Assembly (NCBI GenBank): GCA_030248295.1 | Contig: JASANH010000686.1 | Coordinates: forward strand, 26,641 to 90,640 | Source: Mesodorylaimus sp. YZB2_4 | Lineage: Eukaryota > Nematoda > Enoplea > Dorylaimida > Dorylaimidae | Reading direction: 5' to 3' | Length of the DNA stretch: 64,000 nucleotides | Shown: positions 6,234-64,000 of the stretch, in pieces | Position numbering within the stretch: the stretch's first letter is position 1 | How the letters are laid out: every line of letters starts with the position of its first letter | Notes under the pieces: generated by a model | Database searches by the model: none | What the model was told of the DNA's origin: nothing | Seen by the model: only the letters and a program-made list of their open reading frames with translations | Made by a program: the position numbers and the translations under genes

Positions 6234-9011
6234 CTAGCCAGAACAGGTAAGCAGCAAAAACGAAATGAATCCTGTCCAAGTTATCAACCAGGCCAAGGCA
6301 GTGCTTGCACTGCTGCAGGCGATAGTGTCCCTGTAGATACCCACAAAATCTTCGCCCATAACGTGTTCGAGTTTATCTTCTGGCCACACGGGCGTCAATT
6401 CAGTTGTTGATGGAGTGAACACAGTTGAAGGATCGTTGGGTGTGTAGAATATGGAGAAGGCCTCCCCTTGGCCACCCCCGTAATACAGTTGTGCATCCAT
6501 AAACATCTGAGTCCATCGTCTGTGCTCTTCTTCATCGTGGTACCTCTTGGATATGACGGCCACCTTAGCCGGTATCTTCAACCAGTGGCATTTTATATAG
6601 TCATCAATCTCTCGTCTCGTCCCGTCCAGACATAACAGCTCAAATGTGGCTCGCGCCGTGGGTTGATCGAGTGTGGCAAAAGTTTCATTGACCACGAAAG
6701 CGATGTCGCCAGCGTTCGAATTCGGTTGTGTCAAACATTTCAAGGCACCTAGGCGATCTTTAAATGGACTGCGCTCTCCGCAATGCTCGATATCACTGCC
6801 TCCACATAAGGCGCATAAACTTTGAGGGTCGTCAGTTGGGCGTTTCATTGCGGTCGAAATTTCTGGCACGCAACTCTCCCAGAAAAAACCACCAGCGCTG
6901 CGAGGATAATCACAGTTGATGATCTTCAAAAACCCGTGTCGCTCGAGCATTGTCAGTGGAGCGTTCCATCCTGATAAAAAATGTACATAAGTCTAGTGAT
7001 CCGAACCCCTTTCAAAAGTTGGGGTACCTGGATCCAACAATGCAATGAGTTAAGATCATCTACTGGCCCCCATCACGACCTCTCACCCTTCAGAACTATT
7101 TCACATCCCATGCGAATCCATACGGAAACTACGGCTCTTTCGCGTCCCTCCCCAGGCCCGTTTGTTTCGACCGTGTGTTCCATCTCACGCGTAGCCCACT
7201 GCGGAAGTGAAAAGACTTGCGCATTTCATAGCGTGATCGTGGAAGAATAAGGCCCAAAATTTAGTATAGTCAAAGCTTGGGTAGGACCATATGATGCCTG
7301 TAACCAAGCCCGGCATGCGTAGAAGGGAGGTTCAAAAACTCACGATGGGACTGGAGCAAGGCAAGTCTTGCGACTATAACTACAGCACAGCAGACGGGTT
7401 GAGGTTTCACAGCCAGGAGAGATCGATTATTCCCTCCAATTCCCCGTTGCCTGCAAGGCACGAGGGTTACATGCCCTAAGATTCAGAATACGCCTTAGTT
7501 AACTGTGGGGCCCACTAGGCCACAACCCGTCACATCTCTCAGAGATTCACCCGACTAGTCGTTTCTGTCAATTACTCACCCAAAATGTCATTGGCTCCAG
7601 GATGGCACGATCTGGAACCGATCAAATTATGCAATGAAAAATTGGAGCTTTTCTTTACCACGGCCACCGCGTATAATGTCGCATCCGTGTGATCAGAATA
7701 CTTCTCAGCGAAAATAGGTGTCAAACTGCTTTTGGTGTAAGCAGTATAGGCTTCATCGGGTCTAAGAATAGTCAGATCGGCCGCTCCTTCGCTCACCCAC
7801 CGAGCGCACTCATCTGTCGATCTGGCGCTCAGGCATTTTAACTGCGGTTTCAGCCGTTTGGCTAGGAAAGCGTACATCATCTGCTCGCACTTGTCCACAT
7901 GCATGGGCAAGACTACGCACCACCGAAGTGACAGGGGTTGGCCACAGACCAAAGGCGGCAGGGGGCTTGTAAAGGTGCGTAAGAAGACCAGGCCCAAGTA
8001 GCGTTCGTAAGTGTCCTGGTAGTAGACTTCGCCCACGCCACTCATGTCCGGCCGAGAGAATACGACCTTGTAAAGCCACGGTGGAGCTTCTTGGGTTCCA
8101 TTGTTAGTGTACACTTCAAATATCTTCGTGATAGCTTTCCTCCATTTCGTTTGTGTACCAAGGGCGGTCTTGTCACTCACGGCCACCACGTTCCTTTTAC
8201 TCGCCAACCACGCGCATGGCTTGTTCAATGGACGCCTGGCTCCTTGGATACAAAGTAGGTGATACCGTTCCGGATCCAGATTCGCTTCGATCAAGGCCTC
8301 AGAGCTTGTGATGGCCACGTCGGCATCGTTGTTGAGTAAACAGCGGATAGCGCCTGCGGGTCCCGCGTAGTAGTCCTGTTCCGTACACACTGTACGACAC
8401 AACGAGCACATTTTGCCCCCATATCTCTTCTTCATATCCGGTGATAGTGACCAACGCCCAGGCGCACAACTTTGACCGAAGTATCTGAACAGGCTGGGTA
8501 TGGTGGTAGTACACTCCCCCTCATTGATCGATATGAACCCCAAAGGGTACAGGACATTGACCAGGGCTTGGTACTGTATGTTATTCTCATCCGCTCCGGC
8601 CAAACATAACTTCTTGCCAGCCAAGTCGGCCAGTCCTTCCGTGTACTGCACAGTCTTCTTGACCACCACCACAGCATCGGTCAGCACATCGCTGTCCCCC
8701 ACTCGCTCACTCAGCAAGGGTTTCAGCTGAAAATACTTGCCCGCCACGAATAACTGTTCCGCATCCAAGTTGACGGCATCGGCCAAATTATCATGGATCA
8801 GTTTCATACAATGGAAAGCATGGCGGGCTTCCACGCACATGACTTGCATTAGATGAGCTTGCTGCAATTCGGTGGCCATTTTCTGACATAATTCCTTGCC
8901 CGCACGTCCGATCACGCACCATCGCATCAATGGCACAGTCGAGGTGGTCACAGGAAATAGGGTCCATATGAAGATGGTGCCACTAAAGACCAACATTGAC
9001 AGCGAATTCAT
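6234..9011 (-). CDS. two-lobed transferrin / melanotransferrin-like protein, probably GPI-anchored
   Basis: Two exons (7580-9011 and 6234-6970) join in phase 1 to give 722 residues, the usual length of the family. Residues 1-25 are a signal peptide. The N-lobe carries LDAEQLFVAGKYFQLKP and the cysteine pattern of transferrins. The C-lobe carries RPDEAYTAYT, LYAVAVVKK, SRSCHPG, and across the splice GWNAPL with FFWESCVP. The last 23 residues are hydrophobic with no charged tail, as in GPI-anchored melanotransferrin. Family members bind ferric iron with Asp, two Tyr, His and an Arg/Thr-held carbonate in each lobe. Here the N-lobe keeps the Asp but has Val/Ala where the first Tyr should be and PAG where the second should be, and the C-lobe keeps one Asp and one Tyr. 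The Arg after the SCH motif and both His are replaced. Canonical iron binding is therefore doubtful. Confidence 0.88.
7380..7475. repeat. dispersed repeat family C, fragment in the transferrin intron
   Basis: The segment contains the family-C hallmarks: a GAGATCGAT core followed by CTCC, and CACGAGGGTTAC at the end. The same words recur at about 22.12, 43.92, 44.46, 48.70 and 61.32 kb. It lies within the 609-nt transferrin intron. Confidence 0.5.
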
Positions 9012-10006
9012 ATCGGATAGTGCGATCGATAAACTTGGTCTGCTATACGGTCATTTGCGGGCACGAGTTCGTATACGTGTCAAACGGGTGACGAGCCACG
9101 GTCCAAGCCAGCTGTACTGAAAGCCCTATTGACTTTACGGGCGTCATGACCTGACGGAGGGCGGACAAACCGTTCGGCGTACCTGTCATGGCTACGCTTT
9201 TTGAGTGTGGGGGGGGGGGGGGGCGAGCGAAGGAGCTGCGGTTACGCATTCCATGCCTTTCTACAGACGATGAGACCTGGAAAGCTTCTTTATGCATTTT
9301 GACAGCTGACGTCTTGGCACCTTTTTTCAGATTAAAGAAAATTTTGGCACTCCTGCTTGAACGGAGCTTATTTTTTGTATATCCAGAAGCCGGTTAACGG
9401 TCAACCTCAAGCCAAAGGCGCGTGAGCTGCCAGCATGCCAGGCCCTTTCACCCCGCGCGGGGCACTTCGACGGTCTTTGAGTCATCCAGGACGGGCATGC
9501 GAGGCGCGAGCGTTCCCGGTTTTTCCGGCCGCTTCCGGGGCAAGCCAGCCGCTCGCTATCCCGCGCCACTAGCTCGCGGGTGATGAACTCTGATCCTGGA
9601 CCGCTCGATGCAGGTCTGCTGACCAATACAGCTCAGAACAGAGCAGTGCTGGACAGTGAATTTTACTCTCCAAGAAATAAATGGCCATCGGTCAACCAGG
9701 GGATCTGCACGTCAGAGTTACATGTACTATTCCTGAAATGCACAAAAACTGACCTTGCCCTAGTAAGATTTACTTGAACAAAATACTACAGTACCCTCAG
9801 AAAATACGTGGATCACCTGCGTACACATGACACAATTTGATCTGACTGACTGCACCATAGATAGATCAAGAAAGGCGCGAGATATTAGACACCGGGGAGA
9901 AGCACAGGAAGCACATTCAACGTATAAATTACATAAACTATGGAAACTCGTTAAAACCCAACAAGTGAGTAATATGGGAGCAAATTGTACTGCGAGCATT
10001 CGTAGT
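9012..10006. other. intergenic region between transferrin and GGT
   Basis: This holds a poly-G tract near 9208-9223 and a GC-rich patch at 9400-9570. No exon was recognised. It should contain the promoter of the transferrin gene (right side of that gene) and the 3'UTR of the GGT gene. Confidence 0.5.
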
Positions 10007-47558: not shown

Positions 47559-50500
47559 TTATGTGACGAACAATGTGTTCAGCACCAACACGTTGTGGTT
47601 GTTCTTGGCCATCGTCACAATGAACCCATCACGTGTTATGCGAAGGCCGCAACACCGCGATACCTGAAACCAAACCATTCTCGAAGTCCAGACACGCAGG
47701 ACAGATAGACAGTAACACAACCTATTTTGCTCCCCCTGCATTCCATACATTCTAGGCCGGTCCAACCAGGATCACAACATGCGCTCTGCAACCTGACCAT
47801 CACATCAGCCCTCTGTTTCACCGACCCAGGTCTGTGGCCTACTGGTAAGGCGTCTGCCTCTCACGCTGGGTGGGTTCGACTCCCGCCTCGGTGAAAAATG
47901 ACTATCAAATATGCGTTCCTTAGCCCTCGATTGCGCTGTATGGCGCTTGGCTATAGATAAAGTATGACGACATGACTCTTTCTAGGCTGGGTCCTATAAG
48001 GATCACATGTGCTCTGCAACCCAATCATCAGTCCTCTGTGTTTGGCCAAGGTTCACACAAGGAGCGGAAAATGACTTTCCCAGGTTTTCCAAACAAAAAT
48101 TTGAATTTTCCTCGATTCTTTTCACACTGCCCCTGCACTACTAAATTCACTGACTTTCAGCATGATCAACAGACACACCGCAAAGGCAGGTGACTCGAAC
48201 TGCAACTGCTCAGTTTACCCTGGTTTCGGCTCAAAAATTCCCATTTTCTAGAATTCCATGACTTTTCCAAGTTTTCCAGCCTTGTATGAACCCTGTTCAC
48301 CATTCCCATGGCCAAACATGCATTCCTACTGACACTACTTCTCACCCATCTAAACTGGGGTTTCCATCCAAACTTGCAGTGGTAGACCACCCGACACAGC
48401 CCCAATCAGCACGACCATAAAATCACTAGCCTACCTTTGCGTAAGGACAATCGAATTCGCACGTCAGTTCACCACTCTTACGATAAACAGCCACGTGGAA
48501 ACGATTTCCATGCGAATCTCCAATGAGCACGTCTCCTGCATCCGATATGTCAATTCCGTTCGGAAAATTTGTTATTCCCTCGCATCCCACGCGTCTCAAA
48601 AATGTTCCTGCAAGAGCAATACAATGATCAACCAGCGAAGAGCGTACGTGTCAAAAGGTGGCCTTCCTCTTTCCCTGAATGGTCATGCTTGAGAAGACTC
48701 CCAATCCTACAGCGCCCGATGTAACCCTCGTGCCATGGCGAGTGGGAGAGTAATCTATCTCACTTGGCTGGGAAACGTCAACCCCTCGGGTAGATGTTTC
48801 AACCGTAGCTAGTCTCAAAACTTGCCTGCTCCAGTCGCGCCGACCACACTCCCCCCTCCTGCGCCTGCCAGGCTTGGTTACACCGAGGTCACAGTACCCC
48901 ATAACTGGCCCATTATACTGATTTTACCTGTTTCGGCAAAAACGCAAACGCAATGTCCCTTGAAATCGCAAATATAATATTCGTGACCCGAGACAGCGAT
49001 GTCGGACGGTTCTCTCATGTACTCGGCACAATCGAACCAACGTACCAATTCTCCGCTCTCGTGAATACAAAACACAGTCGGCGTCACACTATCCACAGCC
49101 ACGATACGACCTTCCGGATCAATAGCCAATCCCGCCACTATATCGATGTATCTTATGGCGATCTTTTTTATAAAATGACCAGTACGAGAAAATATTTGCA
49201 TTCGAGAACGCTCGCTTCCACGATCACACACGATGTAGCGACCAGGCGAAACGCCGTTGCCTCGTAAATACGCCACCTAGTAGAAACAGAACCCAGTCTA
49301 GGGTAACCCGGTTCAAAGAAATGATACTTCTAAACTCAATAAAAGTTATCAGTCACAAAATTCTTGGTGGTTGATTTTCTCCTCATAATATTTCAAGAGT
49401 AGCAAATAATGTCATCATTCAACACACACAAAGGAGCCTCCAACCCACACCAACATCCGCTCACCTTTCTCGGATACCACAGTTGACCTTCGTCCTTGCC
49501 AGCTACTCCAAACTGACATCGAAAATCGCCGTTCAAAGAGAACACTTGAACCCGATGATTATTGGTATCGGCAACAGCGATCTCTTCCACTTCGTTCAAA
49601 CAAAATCCATGCGGAGAACTAAACTGGCCTTGACCCGGGCCTAATACTCCGAAACGTGCCCTATAAAACCAGTCTTACTATCAAGAACGCGCGATCAACG
49701 GAGCCAGCTTACTTGGTTTGCATTTGAGTCATTTGCGCAGTCCGTATGGGAGGTGTCAAACCTGACGCCATCGACGAGGCCGGCGTGCCCATCATGCCAG
49801 TTTGCACCGTCACGCCACCAACGCCTCCGAACATCGACGGCAAGCCCATCAACGGGCCCGACGTTCCATCATAGCCACCAACCGGCGATGCACGACGTTG
49901 ACTGCCAGGGGCACCAGCGAATACACTCATCGATACGGGAGGCGGCATCGAGAAATTCGGCATTCCTCCCGCCGAAACGTTCGACCCGCGATAAATCGAA
50001 TTACCAATTCCAACATTACCATTAGCCATGCCACCGAATCCACCATCGACTGGACTAGATTGACTGGTCGAACGGTTCGCCATCTGCAACACAAACTGAC
50101 GATAGGATAGCCCATTCGCACACTCAACACGACTTACCGATAATTGTACACAACTCGTTGGTCTCATACCAGTCACTTGGGACGTTGGCGAAATGCTCGC
50201 ACTACTGCTTGATTGATTCGACATTCCCAAAGCGCCCATTCCGCCATTAGCTACAAGAAAACAAAATCAATACCCCGCCACCACACTCCCCTCCAGTGAC
50301 ACCCCGCGTATGCTTAACTCAGATAAAAAGCAGCCAAGGAATTCGTTTTCATTATTTATCAAACGGTAATTCCTGCTCATCACAGTCCCCGACGCACTGT
50401 CCTACAACACCCAATCAAACTATACTACCTTGCCCGTAATAGTCTGTACCGCCAGTCACTGCATTGGCCATTATGCGCGAGAAGGTATTGTAAGCCGCCG

Positions 50501-53884: not shown

Positions 53885-55252
53885 TTATCTTAATTCGCAA
53901 AACCCCGCCGGCGGTCGCAATGCCAAATAAGGCTTGAGTACTTTCGGAAATATGGCCAAAACTTTGAATTTCGATCCCATTTGTTCATCATTGACTAACA
54001 TTTCGTACGATTTACGTAAATATTCTCGTTCATCATCCGATTTTGCACTTTTCAGAAGAGTTTTCAGACGAACTTCGATACCTAAATTTCGTAAAAAATC
54101 TCCTTGAGTCATCGGCCCGAAACAACACGCGTTTTCTTGCGCGATGCGTTTCAATTGTTCAAAATTAACATCGGCCGTAATATCGTACGAACCTAAATCT
54201 TCATTCAAAAAATTTTCCATTAATTTATGTTTTCGAAATGCTCGCAGCGTATCTCCACATTTTTCTTCTTTATCATAGCCGTAATCAATAATTAAAATAG
54301 CACCGCCATTCTCAGTTATTCGATCGATCGATTGACGCAGGACGTACCAACTTTGAGGACTAATTTCGATATGATCTACATTCGATGGCAATCGTTGTAA
54401 AATGTCTTTCGTTAAATATGTCCGCTGAGCGACGCTTTCGCCGCGCGCCAACGCAAATTTCAAACGTTTTTGTTCAAAATCGGCATCCACAAAAATTTCT
54501 CGCCATTTTCCATCAGTAGATCGTTGAAATTTATGCACTGGCAAGGCATCAAAGAATTCATGCGCGAGGATGAACGAGAATCGCCGAGGAACATCGTCGA
54601 GATCTTTGTACCAAAAAGCTGGCGAACCAAAACTGGTGACGTTCTTTTTAAAATAATGATCATTTTCTTCGACTTCGCTATTTTGTGTCGGTTCTTGATC
54701 AGCCATAGATGTCGACACAGCTGGCGTACACAACAAACGTTCTTGTTTGGCCGCTAAAGCTTCGCTCGTTTCGACCAAACGTACGGAGAGTTGATGATGG
54801 CGATCGTCGTCGCGTGTGATTCGTACTTGTCGAAATGTGTTGAGACAATCCAACATCAGCGACCCGTTTCCTGGACCAAGTTCCACCACTTGCCACGGTC
54901 CATTATGGCCCATCTTCCAACTTTCATACGCGCACCAAACGCCGATTAATTCGCCGAACATTTGACTAATTTCAGGCGAAGTTACAAAATCGCCTCCAAT
55001 GCCATACGTTGAATCGTTGGTCGCTGCAGCATTCGTCGAATAATAAGTTGACGCAGCCAATTTCATGTATTCTGCTACTGTAATCGGACCACTAACTCGA
55101 ATCTTATCGAAAATTATATTCTTCACAGCCGAAGAACTCGATTCCGCGTCTTTCGCCGATCTTACAGTAAACGATCTCGACAATATCCGAAACACTGATC
55201 TTCGCTGCCTCGGAGTGTCGAAACCTTTCGTTCTCGCTAGTCTTCGCCACAT
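53885..55252 (-). CDS. NDUFAF7: NDUFAF7-like mitochondrial protein-arginine methyltransferase (complex I assembly), intronless
   Basis: A single open frame of 455 codons. Residues 1-35 are rich in Arg and Ser with no acidic residue before position 35, a mitochondrial presequence. GDFVTSPEISQMFGELIG (88-105) is the family hallmark and VELGPGNGS (123-131) is the SAM-binding loop. SFILAHEFFDALPVHKF and GAILIIDYGYD follow, and the C-terminal part has GPMTQGDFLRNLGIEVR. NDUFAF7 dimethylates an Arg of NDUFS2 early in complex I assembly. The lack of introns stands out because most neighbours have several. A TTTTTTCAG lies four bases before the ATG, so the 5'UTR may be spliced. The gene is on the same strand as, and 369 bp upstream of, the TRIM-NHL gene. 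Confidence 0.95.
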   Translation of the reverse strand: MWRRLARTKGFDTPRQRRSVFRILSRSFTVRSAKDAESSSSAVKNIIFDKIRVSGPITVAEYMKLAASTYYSTNAAATNDSTYGIGGDFVTSPEISQMFGELIGVWCAYESWKMGHNGPWQVVELGPGNGSLMLDCLNTFRQVRITRDDDRHHQLSVRLVETSEALAAKQERLLCTPAVSTSMADQEPTQNSEVEENDHYFKKNVTSFGSPAFWYKDLDDVPRRFSFILAHEFFDALPVHKFQRSTDGKWREIFVDADFEQKRLKFALARGESVAQRTYLTKDILQRLPSNVDHIEISPQSWYVLRQSIDRITENGGAILIIDYGYDKEEKCGDTLRAFRKHKLMENFLNEDLGSYDITADVNFEQLKRIAQENACCFGPMTQGDFLRNLGIEVRLKTLLKSAKSDDEREYLRKSYEMLVNDEQMGSKFKVLAIFPKVLKPYLALRPPAGFCELR

Positions 55253-56241
55253 TCCCTGAAAAAATATTAGTACTAGATTCGAAAAAAACCCAACAGCTGC
55301 GTGTTGTAGTCACTTCTTTTTGGCAGCTGTCCAGCGTTTATAATTTCAACATCATTTATAAGTCAGCAAGGAACACATTGCGCAAAGCAAACACATTTCT
55401 CACCAACGTAATGGAAAAGGATTTGACAGGACTTTTGCATAACCTATATAAGCTGGGATGACGATATCCTTTTGATGCAACTCGACGCGTAACATTTCTC
55501 CGATGACTGTCACGGGCTGGTTGCAACACTCAAGCCGCAGTATAAAAAAATACGCGGCGCGAAAGAAATCTGTATTAAACTTTTTAGTATTTGTTAAATT
55601 AAAAACCTTTTCTGTAGAAACATTGACAAGTTTATGATTCAGTACAGATGCACAATACTGAAACAGCGGACCTACCCTAGTCGTGAGATAAGTTCTACCG
55701 CCCTGAAGCACAAGAACAATCGCGATTGCAAGTCAATTTGTAAAGTGGCCCAGCATTGCTGTCTCTGCGAAAAAAACCTTATCGAAAACAAAGACCCTAT
55801 GGTTCCACGAAACAGAAAACACACTTAGAAAAAAACAAGAACCACGCACCCCCAGGCTCAAGAAATAATAAGATTTTTATAACGATGCAAAATATGAGGG
55901 AAAATAGGCAAGAAACCTGCAAAAAATTCTTTTATATTACGACGTTACAATAACTTACAGAATCGCCAGCTGGCACCAACCCCGATTTCGCTTGTAAAAT
56001 GTTGCGACAGCCGGCGAGCAGCCTAACACATCGTATCGCTTCTTCGAATCATTTGCTATGCTTTGACTCTTATTTCAATTTGCAAAATATTCATGTAAAA
56101 AATTCTGTCAGGAACTTTTGAAAAAACTCTTCGACACAAAACGAGCCAAGCCAGCAGGATTTATTTTAGTATATTTTTTGTCTTGGAGCCACACTTTATT
56201 ACGAGCCTCATATAATCCTGATATAAGCAGTCAATTTGCAA

Positions 56242-56413: not shown

Positions 56414-59057
56414 ATGAGTTTATCCGAGCTTCAAAAACAAATTTTATCCAAAAAATTTCCTCCATTACCCTCGAAACCATTGGGGTAAGTGAAACTTGAT
56501 TTCTGGGCTGCCCAGGTTTTGAGCCAGGGAGGGTCGGATAATTATGATGAGGATCTGCGCTAATTTAAATTACACAAACCATCTTAGCTACAAAACCTTT
56601 AATTAAGCATAATGAAATCTGCTCGTCGCGATTGTTTGTCCGTTTTTATGTGATTTCTGATTGCACTTCTCTTCTTTTCAGTGGCATAGCCCCTGGTGTT
56701 AAATCAAAAGGCGGCAGGGGGAATACGCGTCGAGATTACACGCCTTTATCCTGGGACTGTTTTTTCGATAAAAAAGAACAAATCCGCGTGGACGATGCCA
56801 ATATTTTCAACGTATATTTCAAAGGGGACAGCGGGCCTGTCTTGTTCTTGTTACACGGAGGTGGTTATTCTGGACTGACCTGGTCCTGCTTTGCAGTAAG
56901 TATGAATCCAATTTGCGTTTTTGTCTTCGCTTGAAACCCGATGTTTTTTAGAAACGAATCATTAGCACCATCGAATGTCGAGTGGTCGCCCCAGATTTAC
57001 GAGGTCATGGTAAGTGCTGGTTTCAAAATAATCTAGACAAACCATAGTCTGAGATTTGATTAGTTGGTGTAGAAGTGAAGTTAAAACTTGGTTTATCGAT
57101 TTAATGTCAGTTATATCATCTGTTTCCCAAGGTAGTCCCCATCCCCGTGTGCAGCGGGTCGTGTTTTACCCTTTACTGGTCTCACGTGGCCTGCTCCGAA
57201 GGGCCAGGCGAGCATGATACAAGGAGCGGGACTATCACATCGCCATTGCTGTCCTGCAGTGCCAGCAACACCAACTAATAAGTGCTGTTGCGTTCCAAGT
57301 CTTACAGACATTGTGTCGAACGCGCCATGTAGGGACCATTTAAGAAATACGAAACTTTGAAGGAACCCTTTTCTTTCCAGGGGATACCATCACTAGCGAC
57401 GATTACGATCTATCAGCTGAAAGGCAATCACAGTAAGTTTTCGGTTTTTCTCCCGTTTTTTTCCACCCAATCTATAAGTTTATTACTTTTAGGGACATCG
57501 CTGCAATCGCGTCAGCCCTGTTTGGCCAAGACCCACCGCCCGTATTTCTGATTGGACACAGGTACGTGTGGTTGTCAGAATTTGGGGGAGTACTAGGGCC
57601 TTGGCGAAGGAAAGCATCATTCTGACGAATGGCTTGGACCCTAGTCAGTGGTTTAGGGTGCCATGGGTATGGTAGTGTTCTGAAATGATGGGAATCATGT
57701 CTCTACCATCAGTGATATGTAGGTCTGCTGAAAAGTAAGATACTCAGGCCATACCACAGAACGTGGGTAAGGCATACCAAATGGTACGGTCTGATCGTGG
57801 GTATCTTAAACTTTTCAGGAGGCCTACCTATCTAAGGGGGTCAACTGTCCCTCTATGGGCAGATGGTCTGATTAGGGCATAGCATTACGATCAGCTGCGC
57901 AGACTAAGCTTCATCTAATTTTTACAGCATGGGCGGTGCCCTGGCAGTGCACGCAGCATCTCGCAATGTGTTCCCTAGTCTTATCGGACTGACGGTCATC
58001 GATGTGGTCGAAGGTGATGGGGTGTTCTATGCGACCTGTGTTTACTTCTTTTCAATAACATTATTTCTAGGCTCGGCCATGGAAGCATTGCAGAGTATGC
58101 AAAACGTCTTGCGGTCTCGTCCCAATAAATTCCAGTCTCAAGAACAAGCGATTGAGTGGTGGTGAGTGGCTCAGCGTGTCTTATCGATTGATTTTATGGA
58201 CCTAGTGTTTCAGTGTTCGGAGCGGCCAAGTACGAAATCTGGAATCTGCTCGAGTCTCAATGCCAGCTCAGATTCGGAAGTAAGTGTTATTTTATAGTGG
58301 CACGGGCCAAAGGGACGCCTGCCGTAAATTAGAGACAGTGGCTTCACTGGTGGTTGAAGAAATTTTCCCGCCATTTTGAAATTTGAATTTTTGATAGGAA
58401 AAATGTATTCAAAAGACAACTCGTTTACGTACCAAAGGCAGCAGACACTGCCACCTGTTAAACCTTAATTTTTTTTCTGAATCCATGATAATTATGAAAA
58501 CCTTCCATCTTGCCTAATCCAAGGTTGTCCATATTGGGCGAGTTACTCCCTTGCACTTTACTTTTATTGACAAGTCACGTGATCGTGCGCTAGTGAATGG
58601 CACGACCTGTTTTTTCAGGACATTAGCGAATGATCCTGCCGACTTCTCGTCGATGATGGCCGAGGAGGCGGAGCATGGTGTGGAGGAGGGCGAATCGAAG
58701 GAGAGCCCCGAAGCGTCATCCGAGCAGTCGACTACGAAAGAATGTTTTGTGTGGCGAATCGATCTATCTCGATCAGAACCATATTGGGACGGCTGGTTCC
58801 GGGGGCTGTCGTCCATGTTCTTGAGTATCGCAGTGCCCAAGTTGTTATTATTGGCGGGCGTGGATCGATTGGACAAGGACCTGACGGTGGGGCAGATGAG
58901 GGGTCAGTTCCAAATGATGGTGTTGCCCAAAGTTGGCCACGCGGTGCACGAAGACTCGCCGGAACGAGTGGCCGACGACGTGGCCACTTTTATGATCCGC
59001 AATAAGTTCAGTGTCGCCAAATCGGATGATATCGAGCAGGTGTTTCCGTGCTGTTGA
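56414..59057 (+). CDS. PPME1: protein phosphatase methylesterase 1 (PP2A demethylase)
   Basis: Nine exons (56414-56484, 56682-56895, 56952-57009, 57381-57432, 57493-57561, 57928-58013, 58071-58161, 58214-58279, 58619-59057) give 381 residues, close to the 386 of human. The alpha/beta-hydrolase fold shows VLFLLHGGGYSGLTW (oxyanion loop), APDLRGHG, and the nucleophile elbow GHSMGG with the catalytic Ser, split by intron 5 at that Ser. VIDVVEGSAMEALQSMQ, WRIDLSRSEPYWDGWFRGLS and LLLAGVDRLDKDLTVGQM (catalytic Asp region) follow, then VGHAVHEDSP with the catalytic His. The enzyme removes the C-terminal methyl ester of the PP2A catalytic subunit. A 40-residue acidic Ser-rich insert lies between RNLESARVSMPAQIRK and WRIDLS. 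Four introns are 52-60 nt. Confidence 0.95.
57720..57826. repeat. short inverted-repeat element in PPME1 intron 5
   Basis: TAGGTCTGCTGAAAAGTAAG and following GATAC face the inverted GTATCTTAAACTTTTCAGGA GGCCTA. Arms are about 25 nt, and a second inner pair (GGCCATACC facing GGTACGGTC) lengthens the stem. Confidence 0.6.
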
Positions 59058-59269
59058 TGCTGCAACTGGTATTTGTGCAGTGCAGTGTGTGATGTTGATG
59101 TGTACAGCCACGACGGACAGGTTTAGCAAACTGCTAGTCGCCTTAGAGTGCTCACATTTTGTGGTGTCCTCGTAATGTAACCAGCATTACTGGGAGATCG
59201 GCAGCTGCGAAACGTCAGCCCTTTTGGTTGATGTCTCATCGGTGAGTCAGCGTAGCAAGTTTACACTGC

Positions 59270-59371
59270 GCTTAAGCAGCCGTGCACAACTTTACAGCAC
59301 ATCACTGCGCGGGATGGTGGTCAGTGTCAGCGAGCAGAATCGTGCAAATCAGTCGTCATCTCGAATCGAAA
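59270..59371 (+). promoter_or_regulatory. 5' flank shared with the paralogue at 63.8 kb
   Basis: AGCCGTGCACAACTTTACA at about 59278-59296 and the following 70 bp, including CAGCGAGCAGAATCGT and AGTCGTC, are also present upstream of the minus-strand paralogue (63.75-63.86 kb). The duplication therefore included the promoter or 5'UTR. Confidence 0.6.
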
Positions 59372-60632
59372 ATGGAATCATCGTTGTGGTTGTTCGTGTG
59401 CTTGGCTGCCGTCTCGACGTTCATTGGCCAGCCGCAGTCCGAATGGAAAATCAACACGCGCGTGTTCGACCTGGCCATCGGCATCCACTTCAACAGCTCC
59501 GTCACGAACCCGGTCAACGAAGAAAACGTAAAACTCCTGACGGTCCTAATCGAAGATCTGGCGCTGACCTTCTCTCTGGCACCAAATAAAACAAGGATGG
59601 CCATCGCTGAATTCGGATCCAATGAGAACCTCCTGTTGTTGATCGAGACGGCGACAGCGCTGACAAGGCGATCGAAGCGACTGGAAAGATCGGCAAAGGC
59701 GCGTACACACCGCCTTTCACATTCACTGCCGCTGATGTCGGAATGAGGACCCGCGAGATGGCGTTTAGGAAGAACGACTGATCGTGAGTCCACGTCCAAA
59801 AGCTGGTCTATTTCTTCACGGCGTTTGCTGAAAATATGTGCGACTACAGTACAGAAGAAGCAATGAGGATATTGACGGCACTCACCCCCTTCGAATTACT
59901 TGGCGTCGTCTTACCCACCTTCGCCATGCCGAGTGAGGGTAAATTCCAGGTGCGGTTGTCATTCAGGATTGTTCTCTCAGACGATGGCACCGCTTACAAG
60001 TGGCAGGGCGCCTGCTACCGAGATTATTCGACAGACGATCTCACAAACGAGATGTGGGATTGGATAGAAGAGAGTATCTCCCACTGCAAAATCAAGAAGC
60101 TGCAGACCCGTGCACGACCATCGGGCCAAAGAACTGCGTCGCTACTGAGTACTATGAAACCGAACTTCGCCCGGGAGCAATCGACTTGTACTGCATGAAA
60201 AATGATTCGATCGTGCCAGTGCCTTGCACAGACAGCTGCCAAGCTCCCAGCACCTCATCTCGAACCACGATTCATGTCAGCGACACGCCAACCCCCAGCC
60301 CCAGCAACACGCCCACTTCGAGTGCTCCTGACGACGATGACGAGGAAGACGAAGGAGAACCAGGCGATGGCCTGTACTGGAACGACGACCCGTACATCGT
60401 CAACCTGCAGCGCACTCTGATCGGCCTGAGCATCGGCTGTGTCATCGCCATCCCGATCGCTGTCGCCGTCGTGCTCTACGACATCCGCCTGGTGAGGGAA
60501 CAGAATGCCCAGAAGAAGATGATGGCTTCGACTGCCCTGGGGTCGTCAACAGCCGAATGGAGTGTTTCGGCCCCGCCTGAACTGTCGCTGACGCCAGTCG
60601 ATGACTTGGTCAGGAAGTACGCCTCCAAGTAG
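59372..60632 (+). pseudogene. decayed copy of a VWA-like secreted/membrane protein
   Basis: The frame opens with a signal peptide (MESSLWLFVCLAAVSTFIGQ) and VFDLAIGIHFNSS, and tracks the minus-strand paralogue at 62.6-63.7 kb to about 59640. There the homologous frame shifts (GDSADKAIEATGKIGKGAY and on). Two in-frame TGA codons follow near 59780. A second shift near 60100 precedes PCTTIGPKNC and IDLYCMKNDSIVPVPCTDSC. The last part has a Ser/Thr/Pro stalk, an acidic run, YWNDDPYIVNLQRTLIGL, a membrane helix (IGCVIAIPIAVAVVLYDIRL) and a cytosolic tail. The distal part is unbroken, so sequencing errors cannot be excluded, but three lesions make a pseudogene likely. The family is not known to me beyond the VWA resemblance. 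Confidence 0.7.
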
Positions 60633-60774
60633 GCTGTGCCATGACGATCGTGATGAACGAATGATCCTGCAGCTTGTTCTCTATGCTGCGTTTTTTCTGT
60701 GATGATGATTCTTTTGTATCAGAAGGCTACTAATCATGAAAAGAACCACTTCAATGAGGATAACTGAATGCAGC

Positions 60775-61430
60775 ACACATGAAACACAGCCCACTCTTGT
60801 TGTGATCATTGCGCCTGGAATTCTTGGGGGTGTGGCTAGTGCAGTTGGCTCAGTAGGGAGGAACCAAGGCAGTATAAGCAGACCTCCGGCAGAGATCAGG
60901 GCTTTCCTTGCTCGTTTTAGTTCGCAACTGATTGATCGCAATTTGTAAGGAGCCTCTTTACATTTGATCAGCCCATTTGGCAGAATGGTGGTCCAGTCAG
61001 GGACTCCAGGTACCACTTTCAACCTGACTGTGATCGTCGTTTTTCTTTGGTTCGTAGGGGGAAGAGTCCAGGAGTTGACTCCAGGGCAGCATTTGGTTTG
61101 TCTGTGGGGAAGATCTGGGACTGCTGAGACATCGTCGCGCATCGTGCTCGTAAAGGATCCTCAGGTCGTGACAGCGCCGTCAACAATAAGACTGTTCGCC
61201 AGCGCGGGTGTCTTAGGACTGTGTGCATCCGTCCTGTAGCCAGGCTAGTGTCAAGCTAGTTGCAGGCAGATAGAGGCGCGGCATATACGCCTGAGGCGTT
61301 AAAACACCCTCAGCGTGTATGGCATACACGCTTAGGGTAGGAATCGGGACCTTAGAGATCGATACTCCCTTCTACCAGGCCATGGCTATAGAAGACCTTG
61401 TAAGATCAACCCAAACCCATCATCACGTGA
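60775..61430. repeat. family-A and family-C repeat remnants
   Basis: GTTGGCTCAGTAGGGAGGAA near 60845 resembles the A-box-like head of family A. AGAGATCGATACTCCC and CAGGCCATGGCTATAG near 61349-61395 resemble family C. The region lies between the two VWA-like copies. Confidence 0.4.
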
Positions 61431-62165
61431 GCCCAGAAGATCAGTCTCGCACGCTCACACAACACTCTGTGCTTGCCATAGTACGGTAAGCAGATCTCGC
61501 AGGACCAGAGTAAAGGCTAGGCGGATCCATGAAATCCCACAGCTCATGTGCCTCGAATTGAATGGTGTGTTCTTTGCGAGCTCTTTGCTGCATTCGATGA
61601 CTTCATGACGCTTTGTTGTACGCACTTTATTCGTCAATGCAACCGCGTCAATGCAGGTAATGAAAAAGGCAACACATGGCCCCCTTTTAGAATGCATGAC
61701 CTCGCTTGATCGCGGTGCAGGTTTGGGAATGTTATCTGCAGAATGCGAATCGATTAATTTGCCATGATGTCCTTGCAAGCTGATTGCTAGAATTTCGTTG
61801 CGTAGTCTAAACTCTGGAGCCTATTCCCTCACAATCAGTCTCAGGCGCATCCTTGTTCTCGTCACATCCTTACGATCAGGCCGCACAACCATTTAACACA
61901 TCCTGCTAGCTCTAAGGCCCAGTTTTTCTATTATCTTGAAAAGGCTCTGACTTCTTCCTGAGTGTCGTTTTAAACACTCACCACCTCCGCGCGAGGTGAG
62001 CGCGTTAGGGTGGCTACCGAGCCCTGAGCAGTTTGCGAAAGCTGTGTGTCGGGGCGGTAGTCTATTGTACTCACCAACATCGTCTCACACATCACACAAC
62101 ACTGGAGGCGAGGAGATGCTCCATGGAGAACATTGTTCGCTGGCTTCCCAATTACCCTTTTCTTG
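61431..62165. other. stretch without a recognised gene
   Basis: Short overlapping open frames only. No splice-bounded exon, RNA gene or repeat unit was recognised. Confidence 0.4.
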
Positions 62166-62169
62166 GACG

Positions 62170-62300
62170 GCGGCTTCATGAGCTTCTCTAGTATTTTTCC
62201 CCTTCCTCAGGCAGATGTCGTCGATCAGAGTGCGCTCCAGGTTAACGATGTATGGATCGTCATTCCAGTACAGACAGTCGTCTTTCTCATGGACGAAGTG
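62170..62300 (-). pseudogene. detached C-terminal remnant of the VWA-like paralogue
   Basis: On the minus strand, CLYWNDDPYIVNLERTLIDD is encoded, matching GLYWNDDPYIVNLQRTLIGL of the plus-strand copy. It then runs into DICLRKGK, equivalent to DIRLVREQ after the membrane helix. The helix itself is deleted. The remnant lies about 340 bp beyond the present stop codon of the minus-strand gene, where that gene's original 3' end should be. Confidence 0.7.
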
Positions 62301-62624
62301 GAATTAGTGGCACGACATGAGCAAAGTTGTAGCTGGGAAAATGATAGTCAACAACGTGGAGTGTGTGTATGGCACAAAACAGGTTTCTTTTCCTTTTTAG
62401 CTTAAACAAAGGCGTTTTTATTAATGCTTTTGCTGTGTGACTTGTTACTTGAGTGCGCATGATATGTGTTTTAAGAAGTAAAACTAGAACTAGAACTCGA
62501 ACTTCACACACGCAGACCACAAAAGCAAGAAACAACCCTACCATACTGTATAAACCAGATTATCCTGCCCTGTTTGAGTGCAGAGGAAAACTAGATACGA
62601 AAAAAGACAGCTAAACTTCCAGGA

Positions 62625-63722
62625 CTATTTGGAAAGCATACCATGCAAATACGAATAACTCAAAAAGCCCACCAGGATAACCACGATCAAATCTTCCGGA
62701 CGGTCTTTCCCTTCCTTCTCATTCCCATCATCGTCGGCAGAAGCGCTCGAAGTGCGCGTATTGTGGCGGCTGGGGGCGGGCGTGATACTATCTGTGGTTT
62801 GAGATGGGGTGCTAGGACTTTGGCAGCTGTCGGTGCAAGGCACTGACACAGTCGAACCGTTTTTCATGCAGTAAATGTCGATTTCGTTATCAGGTGGGCG
62901 CTCTTGAACCGTCCCATTCTTGATAACTGCAGTTTGATAGTGCTCAGCAGCGACGCAGCTGTCCGGTTCTATTTTCGTGCATGGCCCCTGCCACTCCTTG
63001 AAAGGGCAGGAGGAGAGAGTGCTGTTTATCCATGCGCCCAAATCGATGGTAAGAACGTTCAAAGATCCAGTCCCGAAGCAATTTCCATTCCATGCGTAGC
63101 TGACGCCACCGTCTTCCTTGCGAGTCAAATTGAACGCCCCCACCACAAGCGCTTGGAATCTATCACCGGCTGGCCAGGCAAAGGTAGGAAAAAAGACGGC
63201 ATGGGCGTCAGTTTTGATGATTTCTTGGACTCTTCGCTCTCGTTCGGCTTCACTGACTTCGCACACTTTCTCAGCAAAAGTCGTGAAGACATAGACCAGC
63301 TTGGGGACATTGACTCGGTCGTTCTTCGCAAACGCTATTTCACGGGTCCTTTTGCCGACATCAGCAGCAGTGAATGGGAAAGGCGGTGTGTAAGTCCCGT
63401 TGCCGATCTTTTCCGCCGCTTTGGTCACGTTCCTATAGCTGCTTCCATTCTCGATCGACAACAGCAGCGTCTCATGGGATCCGAATTCGACGATGGCCAT
63501 CCTTGTTCTATTTTGAGCCGGATAGAACATCTCCGCCAGCACCAAGATCACTTCCTTCAAGAGATTGACACTTTTTTTGTTGACTACATTCGTGATGGAA
63601 CTGTTGTAGTGGATGCCGAAGGCCAGGTCGAATACGTGCGTGTTGTAGTTCCATTCGGATTTTGGTTGACCATCGATCGAGAAGACAGCCAAGCACACGA
63701 GCAAACACAGCGATGATTTCAT
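62625..63722 (-). CDS. VWA-like secreted or membrane protein, intact paralogue
   Basis: One open frame of 365 codons. Residues 1-18 are a signal peptide (MKSSLCLLVCLAVFSIDG). Residues 25-190 resemble a VWA fold: VFDLAFGIHYNSS at the first strand, TRMAIVEFGS for the second and VPKLVYVFTT for the fourth. The MIDAS DxSxS motif is absent. N-glycosylation sequons are frequent. A cysteine-bearing module (CFGTGSLN, CPFKEW, PCTKIEPDSC, IDIYCMKNGSTVSVPCTDSC) follows, then a Ser/Thr/Pro stalk. The end is a weakly hydrophobic segment (LIVVILVGFLSYSYLHGML) unrelated to the membrane helix of the plus-strand paralogue. It could act as a membrane or GPI-type tail. Function unknown; possibly an adhesion or matrix protein. 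Confidence 0.75.
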   Translation of the reverse strand: MKSSLCLLVCLAVFSIDGQPKSEWNYNTHVFDLAFGIHYNSSITNVVNKKSVNLLKEVILVLAEMFYPAQNRTRMAIVEFGSHETLLLSIENGSSYRNVTKAAEKIGNGTYTPPFPFTAADVGKRTREIAFAKNDRVNVPKLVYVFTTFAEKVCEVSEAERERRVQEIIKTDAHAVFFPTFAWPAGDRFQALVVGAFNLTRKEDGGVSYAWNGNCFGTGSLNVLTIDLGAWINSTLSSCPFKEWQGPCTKIEPDSCVAAEHYQTAVIKNGTVQERPPDNEIDIYCMKNGSTVSVPCTDSCQSPSTPSQTTDSITPAPSRHNTRTSSASADDDGNEKEGKDRPEDLIVVILVGFLSYSYLHGMLSK

Positions 63723-64000
63723 TTTTGATTGGTGAGACGACGATGAGGGTGAATTTGATAAGAGATTTTTGTGAGACGACTAATTTCTACGATTCTGTTC
63801 GCTGAAGTGCCGACCACCGCCAGGCGTGCTGATGTAAAGTTGTGCACGGCTTCTTTAGCTTACAAGGGAGCATGGCCAAACCTAGTCAAGCTTTGCAATT
63901 TTCGGTTTTGGTTGGCCATGCTCCTTTGTGAGTGTAAAGATGACAGCGCGCGCACATTGGGAGTGGAATTTTTAAATTCCTCGTTGGATTTCGCATGATT
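63723..64000 (-). promoter_or_regulatory. 5' flank of the VWA-like gene
   Basis: Read on the minus strand, this contains AGCCGTGCACAACTTTACA at about 63837-63855 and CAGCGAACAGAATCGTAG, homologous in order to the flank at 59.28-59.35 kb. The window ends before the outer edge of the duplication can be seen. Two inverted words, AGGAGCATGGCCAA and GGGAGCATGGCCAA, lie near 63865-63925. Confidence 0.5.

Follow-up and report, generated by a model that had tools for sequence, protein, structure and literature searches.

In 1987, Caras reportedly described an Alu-derived alternative C-terminus of decay-accelerating factor that alters membrane attachment, produced by alternative splicing in one gene. 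Transposon sequence also supplies the last residues of mammalian IL18R1-Short: 22 in human, 23 in bat, and 5 in mouse (PMC13232192). The LINE2-derived end accompanies loss of the intracellular signalling domain, leaving a membrane-held decoy (PMC13232192). Another report traces those CEACAMs that are anchored through glycosylphosphatidylinositol (GPI) to changes in the transmembrane exon, namely stop codons plus further mutations (PMC2832619). A related situation occurs in the nematode Mesodorylaimus sp. YZB2_4, in a stretch of 64,000 nucleotides (assembly GCA_030248295.1, contig JASANH010000686.1, positions 26,641 to 90,640; hereafter the window) that is the end of contig C331. Here the gene W- has lost its membrane helix and cytoplasmic tail to a new C-terminus, almost certainly through insertion of an element resembling a miniature inverted-repeat transposable element (MITE).

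The initial annotation of the window had described an inverted duplication of a VWA-like gene, with one copy decayed and the tail of the other replaced. Its outline is sound. Positions 59000-61999 align with 62000-64000 on opposite strands (1,053 columns, 68.9% identity, E 3e-114), and W+ (59372-60632, plus strand) and W- (62625-63722, minus strand) are inverted, convergent copies. W- stays open over 365 codons with a foreign hydrophobic C-terminus; the old C-terminus is present as a remnant at about 62,097-62,279, with its membrane-helix codons missing, and matches its W+ counterpart over 69 bp at 84% (an inverted match inside the window). The shared 5' flank is also real (81 bp, 79%), but it is not special to the pair: most of 15 aligned copies have one. 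The description of the duplication as young finds no support, given an identity between the copies of about 69% overall and of 54% in mid-ectodomain. The parts of W- are as follows.

62625..63722, minus strand: W-, the tail-replaced member, 365 codons (open frame; 99% identical in A91)
63669..63722, minus strand: putative signal peptide, codons 1-18 (read from sequence)
63279..63581, minus strand: stretch with Pfam VWA match, residues 48-148 (E 0.0074, 17 bits)
63018..63281, minus strand: hypervariable middle segment, codons 148-235 (pN/pS among seven helix-bearing genes, defined below)
62823..63017, minus strand: cysteine module, codons 236-300 (alignment, cysteine positions)
62703..62822, minus strand: acidic stalk, codons 301-340 (alignment; dN/dS 0.30 against A75, as below)
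62628..62702, minus strand: last 25 codons, the element-encoded hydrophobic tail (similar peptide from the element in the same phase)
62097..62279, minus strand: remnant of the ancestral C-terminus, helix codons deleted (tblastn with the W+ C-terminus, 36% over 77 columns; three-frame reading)

Antisense to W- runs an open frame of 289 codons from stop to stop (62847-63716, plus strand), probably a by-product of codon use.

The two genes are more than a mere pair. DNA and protein searches of the 145-Mb genome assembly (1,067 contigs) locate at least 18 family loci, nine with intact frames. Nine of the loci lie on contig C312 and are named by kilobase (A68, A72, A75, A78, A81, A85, A88, A91, and A95); the others are B66, B69, and B187 on C147; D303, D414, and D561 on C36; a C-terminal fragment on C62; and W+ and W-. 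A protein search with B187 returned 41 matches, all at the named loci plus the C62 fragment; it was the best candidates that were scored, so the locus count is a lower bound. Contig C643 carries near-identical W+ and W- (99.7% identity to the window over 5,683 bp), which are taken as the other haplotype and left out of the count. On C312, a four-gene family block at about 66-79 kb is repeated at 79-91 kb with 95-99% identity. (The C62 fragment, at 104770-105024, is a lone C-terminal piece, 79% identical over 84 query residues; no ectodomain lies within the 1.75 kb read next to it.)

Each intact frame is uninterrupted and is therefore read as one exon. In seven of the nine, the protein closes with a conserved helix followed by a cytoplasmic tail; the other tail is found in W- and A91. 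(The A91 protein is 98.6% identical to that of W-, and A91 may be another allele of W- or a recent duplicate.) From their predicted features, the intact members read as type I membrane proteins, cell-surface-like. Their VWA-like character is borne out: all nine match Pfam VWA, with E values up to 1 and the best at 1.2e-6. The matches, weak for some of the nine, span roughly the domain's first half; W- alone scores 17 bits against PF00092 (E 0.0074, residues 48-148; cut-off 23.8 bits). A profile of the nine, compared with solved chains, ranks integrin alpha-1 first (E 0.0057). No DxSxS metal-binding motif occurs in residues 29-46 of the nine intact proteins; many VWA domains are without it.

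Homology between W- and the helix-bearing genes stops at 62703, and the sequence beyond matches a dispersed element. A search with one element copy finds 23 genomic places, made up of the query copy, the inserts at four family loci, and 18 places elsewhere. Copies begin TGTCGCGAAGGTG and end GTCCACGACA. Boundaries were sought at eight loci, and six could be delimited (four of 357 bp, two of 389-390 bp; L041 and L054 were not delimited). Perfect 5-bp target duplications flank L051 and L052, and an approximate one flanks L049. The element resembles MITEs in being dispersed, with defined ends, a length of 357 bp in the best-delimited copies, and a 5-bp target duplication in some copies. It departs from them in its very short, imperfect terminal repeats: the termini TGTCGCG and (reversed) TGTCGTG match at 6 of 7 bases, too short for firm terminal inverted repeats. 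The element's features within the window are these.

62285..62702, minus strand: MITE-like insert of 418 bp within the gene (homology to L041, L042, and L049-L055; matching ends)
62703..62707, minus strand: target-site duplication AAGAC, gene-side copy (flank comparison)
62280..62284, minus strand: target-site duplication AAGAC, far copy (flank comparison)
62415..62501, minus strand: second dispersed repeat, nested in the element (19 other genomic places; missing from the A75 insert)

Five family loci bear this insert: W-, A91, A75, A88, and A78. The insert is flanked on both sides by AAGAC in W-, A91, and A75, and by AAGAC and ATGAC (one mismatch) in A78; A88 is a near duplicate of A75 that diverges past the middle of the insert, so its far-side flank is uninformative. 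The element measures 308 bp in A75 and 418 bp in W-, A91, and A78, where the second dispersed repeat sits inside it. Because five loci have it, the insertion is shared and older than the W+/W- pair; the simple reading would be one insertion in a common ancestor of the insert-bearing loci. The tail replacement is accordingly not peculiar to the pair, as had been supposed. "Membrane-anchor turnover" was an apt phrase insofar as helix and cytoplasmic tail are gone from W-; its cause is, with near certainty, the insertion of a transposon with target-site duplication, and not some rearrangement linked to the inverted duplication. Behind the same insertion, the A75 remnant still encodes helix-like sequence, out of frame, whereas these codons are deleted in W-. 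The helix deletion therefore came later than the insertion.

The ectodomain points to constraint. Between W- and A75, the ratio of nonsynonymous to synonymous substitution rates (dN/dS) is 0.45 over 290 codons (P 4.1e-6; P values for dN/dS rest on rebuilt, rounded substitution counts). Constraint is seen separately in the middle segment (P 0.018), in the cysteine module (P 0.015), and in the stalk, the 40 codons beside the insertion (dN/dS 0.30, P 0.009). In the stalk, W- and A75/A88 are mutual nearest neighbours in the 15-copy alignment, near-identical duplicates aside. In a neutral simulation at 10% divergence, 2.5% of W- frames stay open. On balance, it seems that an insert-bearing protein without a cytoplasmic part was once functional and is now decaying.

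The tail itself derives from element sequence. In the gene's phase, element L051 reads CREGVHAIILTCISTYSSAHLHGVVSKTV followed by a stop, and W- reads RPEDLIVVILVGFLSYSYLHGMLSK followed by a stop. Counted from the first tail codon, the DNA of W- is 62-68% identical to five element copies, and that of A75 is 66-76% identical to them. Eight element loci were read in this phase: five match the start motif, three of them open for 29-42 codons and two with early stops. The best 19-residue stretch has a mean hydropathy of 2.72 in the ancestral helix and 1.95 in W-. In A75 the value is 1.86, from a stretch lying past the region homologous to the W- tail, and the three open element copies give 1.25-1.34. 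When random mutation of five element copies is simulated, 1.2-1.4% of open frames attain 1.86, in a test that was picked after data inspection and ignores indels. These values hint at selection for tail hydrophobicity. W- does have a hydrophobic C-terminal end, and it is possible, at somewhat less than an even chance, that the tail sits in the membrane as a short C-terminal segment and works as an anchor. A GPI signal or secretion appears less likely; the omega-site context of the tail looks poor by the usual rules for GPI anchoring.

The sequence itself shows the first part of a history and suggests the rest. The MITE-like element inserted between acidic stalk and membrane helix, duplicating AAGAC, before the W- and A75/A88 lineages split. 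As the frame runs into the element and ends there, the ectodomain would be kept, a 25-residue hydrophobic tail gained, and the helix and cytoplasmic tail left untranslated, as a remnant that later decayed. After the insertion, the ectodomain would have stayed constrained, and the tail would have had only to remain hydrophobic. The product would lack a cytoplasmic part and, should the family signal, would resemble a decoy. The insert-bearing lineage would now be decaying, given the stop in the C643 copy of W- and the broken A75/A88 and A78.

In its fullest form, this history makes the MITE a domesticated anchor: non-coding sequence refined by selection into a hydrophobic end, which gives an invertebrate's hypervariable and gene-converting VWA-like family a decoy-like member with no cytoplasmic part. 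Taken whole, that proposal is doubtful. Several findings also weigh against the once-functional, now decaying protein of the history above. Constraint in the N-terminal codons 50-147, for W- against A75, is not significant alone (P 0.051); W- and A91 differ by five nonsynonymous and two synonymous changes, compatible with neutrality (P 0.66). A stop interrupts the C643 copy of W- at codon 93 and probably marks a broken allele that is segregating; A75 and A88 have a common frameshift near codon 50; and A78 retains its 3' end only. Gene conversion may have imported constraint from intact paralogs, contributing to the value of 0.45, and in the middle and cysteine parts A75 is nearer to A72 than to W-. 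In the tail, dN/dS between W- and A75 is 0.92 (P 1), and conservation (50 of 74 columns) is below that of the element's untranslated part (77% over 118). The hydropathy test was, as noted, chosen late, and three of the six delimited element copies (L042, L053, and L055) have no clear target duplication. Much of this would fit plain inactivation, in which the insertion made W- a pseudogene whose frame stayed open, or was opened again, through conversion from functional paralogs, and whose hydrophobic tail is accidental. The broken or truncated A75, A88, and A78 and the stop in C643 are expected on this account (W- and A91 counting as one lineage), as is the lack of sequence constraint on the tail; element copies are already mildly hydrophobic in the tail phase; and the mosaic genes described below indicate that conversion is active. 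Yet the stalk beside the insertion is constrained, and in this part W- and A75/A88 lie nearest to each other, near-identical duplicates aside; the frames of W- and A91 are open throughout; and tail hydropathy lies above that of the element copies. Inactivation is itself somewhat unlikely.

Other explanations fare worse. The remnant is open for about 60 codons in W-, and close to the far end of the insert there is a TA-rich stretch together with an AG, as if the insert were an intron spliced to the remnant C-terminus. This is highly improbable: the remnant lacks the helix in W-, is out of frame in A75, and is unlike between W- and A91, and joining at the element ends would, by reading of the sequence, leave the remnant frame. 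The intron is rejected on the transposon ends and target duplication of the insert, and on the seven intact paralogs with no intron at the site. The account first given, a young inverted duplication in which local rearrangement replaced the tail of one copy, rightly recognized the inverted pair and the remnant. It is rejected by the family comparison and now has hardly any probability, since the same insertion occurs in five loci, the middle segments of W+ and W- are 54% identical, and W+ is a mosaic of other members. Equally improbable is an assembly artefact, with the inverted arrangement or the lesions arising from misjoined or mispolished repeats. The window and C643 do both stop 278 bp upstream of the W- start, and C312 has a 2-kb inverted repeat (99.6%) at its contig end along with two near-identical gene blocks. 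However, C643 keeps the gene order and the W+ frame pattern at 99.7% over 5,683 bp (an error from the same reads being possible), and A91, A75, and A78 have the same insertion junctions.

W+ is not the counterpart that the initial annotation took it for. In comparison with D561 and A68, its frame shifts near 59,648 and again near 60,105, and it has near 59,779 a 6-bp insertion with two in-frame stops beside it, so that its reported disruption is real; the change near 60,105 is common to the broken B66. In the 15-copy alignment (A78, D414, C62, and the two C643 copies excluded), the nearest relative of W+ shifts along the gene among four family members: A68 for the N-terminal part (91%); B66 for the middle and cysteine module (76% and 92%); D303 for the stalk (87%, with D561 at 86%); and A95/A72 for helix plus cytoplasmic part (99%). 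Because nearest neighbours shift along genes, gene conversion is indicated, and W+ looks like a conversion mosaic.

59372..60632, plus strand: W+, broken mosaic family member (frame changes, stops, nearest-neighbour shifts; same pattern in C643)
59943..60632, plus strand: 3' open part of W+, of the helix-bearing type: end of cysteine module, acidic stalk, helix, cytoplasmic tail (open frame)
59270..59349, plus strand: W+ 5' flank (81-column opposite-strand match, 79%, to the W- 5' flank at 63784-63860)
61974..62165, no strand: junction between the W+ and W- 3' flanks (blastn of the window against C312)

Among the seven helix-bearing genes, the proportions of nonsynonymous (pN) and synonymous (pS) differences are 0.48 and 0.54 in the middle segment, against 0.11 and 0.23 in the N-terminal part and 0.09 and 0.25 in the helix and cytoplasmic part. 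The pooled dN/dS of 0.80 for the middle segment, where synonymous divergence is high too, does not establish positive selection. As pS is also high, old segment lineages with homogenised ends explain the divergence better than positive selection alone. A hypervariable middle between conserved ends, in mosaic genes, is the layout of a recognition-receptor family, and the role is perhaps in recognition or immunity.

Around the pair, blastn matches C312 to the window at 86% over 59352-61973 and at 99% over 62166-64000. The C312 inverted repeat (92467-94525 and 97664-99722, 99.6%) surrounds the intact A95 and reaches the contig end. Neighbouring frames in the window match transferrin (6237-9050, minus strand), an NDUFAF7 homologue (53888-55309, minus strand), and the C-terminal part of PPME1 (58551-59054, plus strand), as fits an animal genome. 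A SNORD36-like match lies at 49344-49423, minus strand (32.6 bits, threshold 30, E 0.25). Elsewhere in the genome, COX1 has 15 matches (on C73, C273, C741, C47, and others), many with several stops; the stop-bearing ones are likely nuclear copies of mitochondrial DNA. The copy on C73 reads through with TGA as Trp, and AGR is best read as Ser, a code that suggests a protostome. PF00379 matches nothing in this genome, nor in any control genome, so its silence is no sign of absence.

The locus offers a clean case in which a transposon replaces, at the genomic level, the anchor and inner tail of a surface-like protein; paralogs with and without the insert stand together, and decay can be seen at several stages. 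Should proteins with the insert reach the membrane, they would show that a functioning anchor can come from chance element sequence. The family is noteworthy in its own right, its conserved ends, hypervariable middle, and apparent shuffling by conversion recalling recognition receptors. A literature search (titles and abstract openings in one open-licence library, a small look) found no MITE-made membrane anchor.

Comparison with described systems places the family near the VWA (integrin I-like) proteins: all nine intact members match Pfam VWA, and integrin alpha-1 is the top solved chain. It differs from them in that the first half of the domain is matched and the second half is hypervariable, with no DxSxS in residues 29-46. 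In contrast to the alternative splicing reported for decay-accelerating factor, W- carries a genomic insertion inherited by several loci. W- and A91 resemble transposon-made decoy receptors in keeping the ectodomain without the helix and cytoplasmic tail of the other seven intact members. As in IL18R1-Short, a transposon gives W- its last residues and the inner domain is lost (PMC13232192). IL18R1-Short keeps its own helix, is an isoform made through an intronic polyadenylation signal, and has had its decoy action tested (PMC13232192); in W-, the element lies before the helix in the paralogs' genomic frame and would itself have to supply any anchor. Like the CEACAMs (PMC2832619), the W- family is tandem and gene-converting and would vary in anchorage, with a hydrophobic C-terminus lacking a cytoplasmic tail; the CEACAM anchor switched without a transposon, whereas the helix of W- was lost to one. 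Transposon-made receptor C-termini and anchor switching are thus already known; an element replacing the helix in the paralogs' genomic frame is a new combination.

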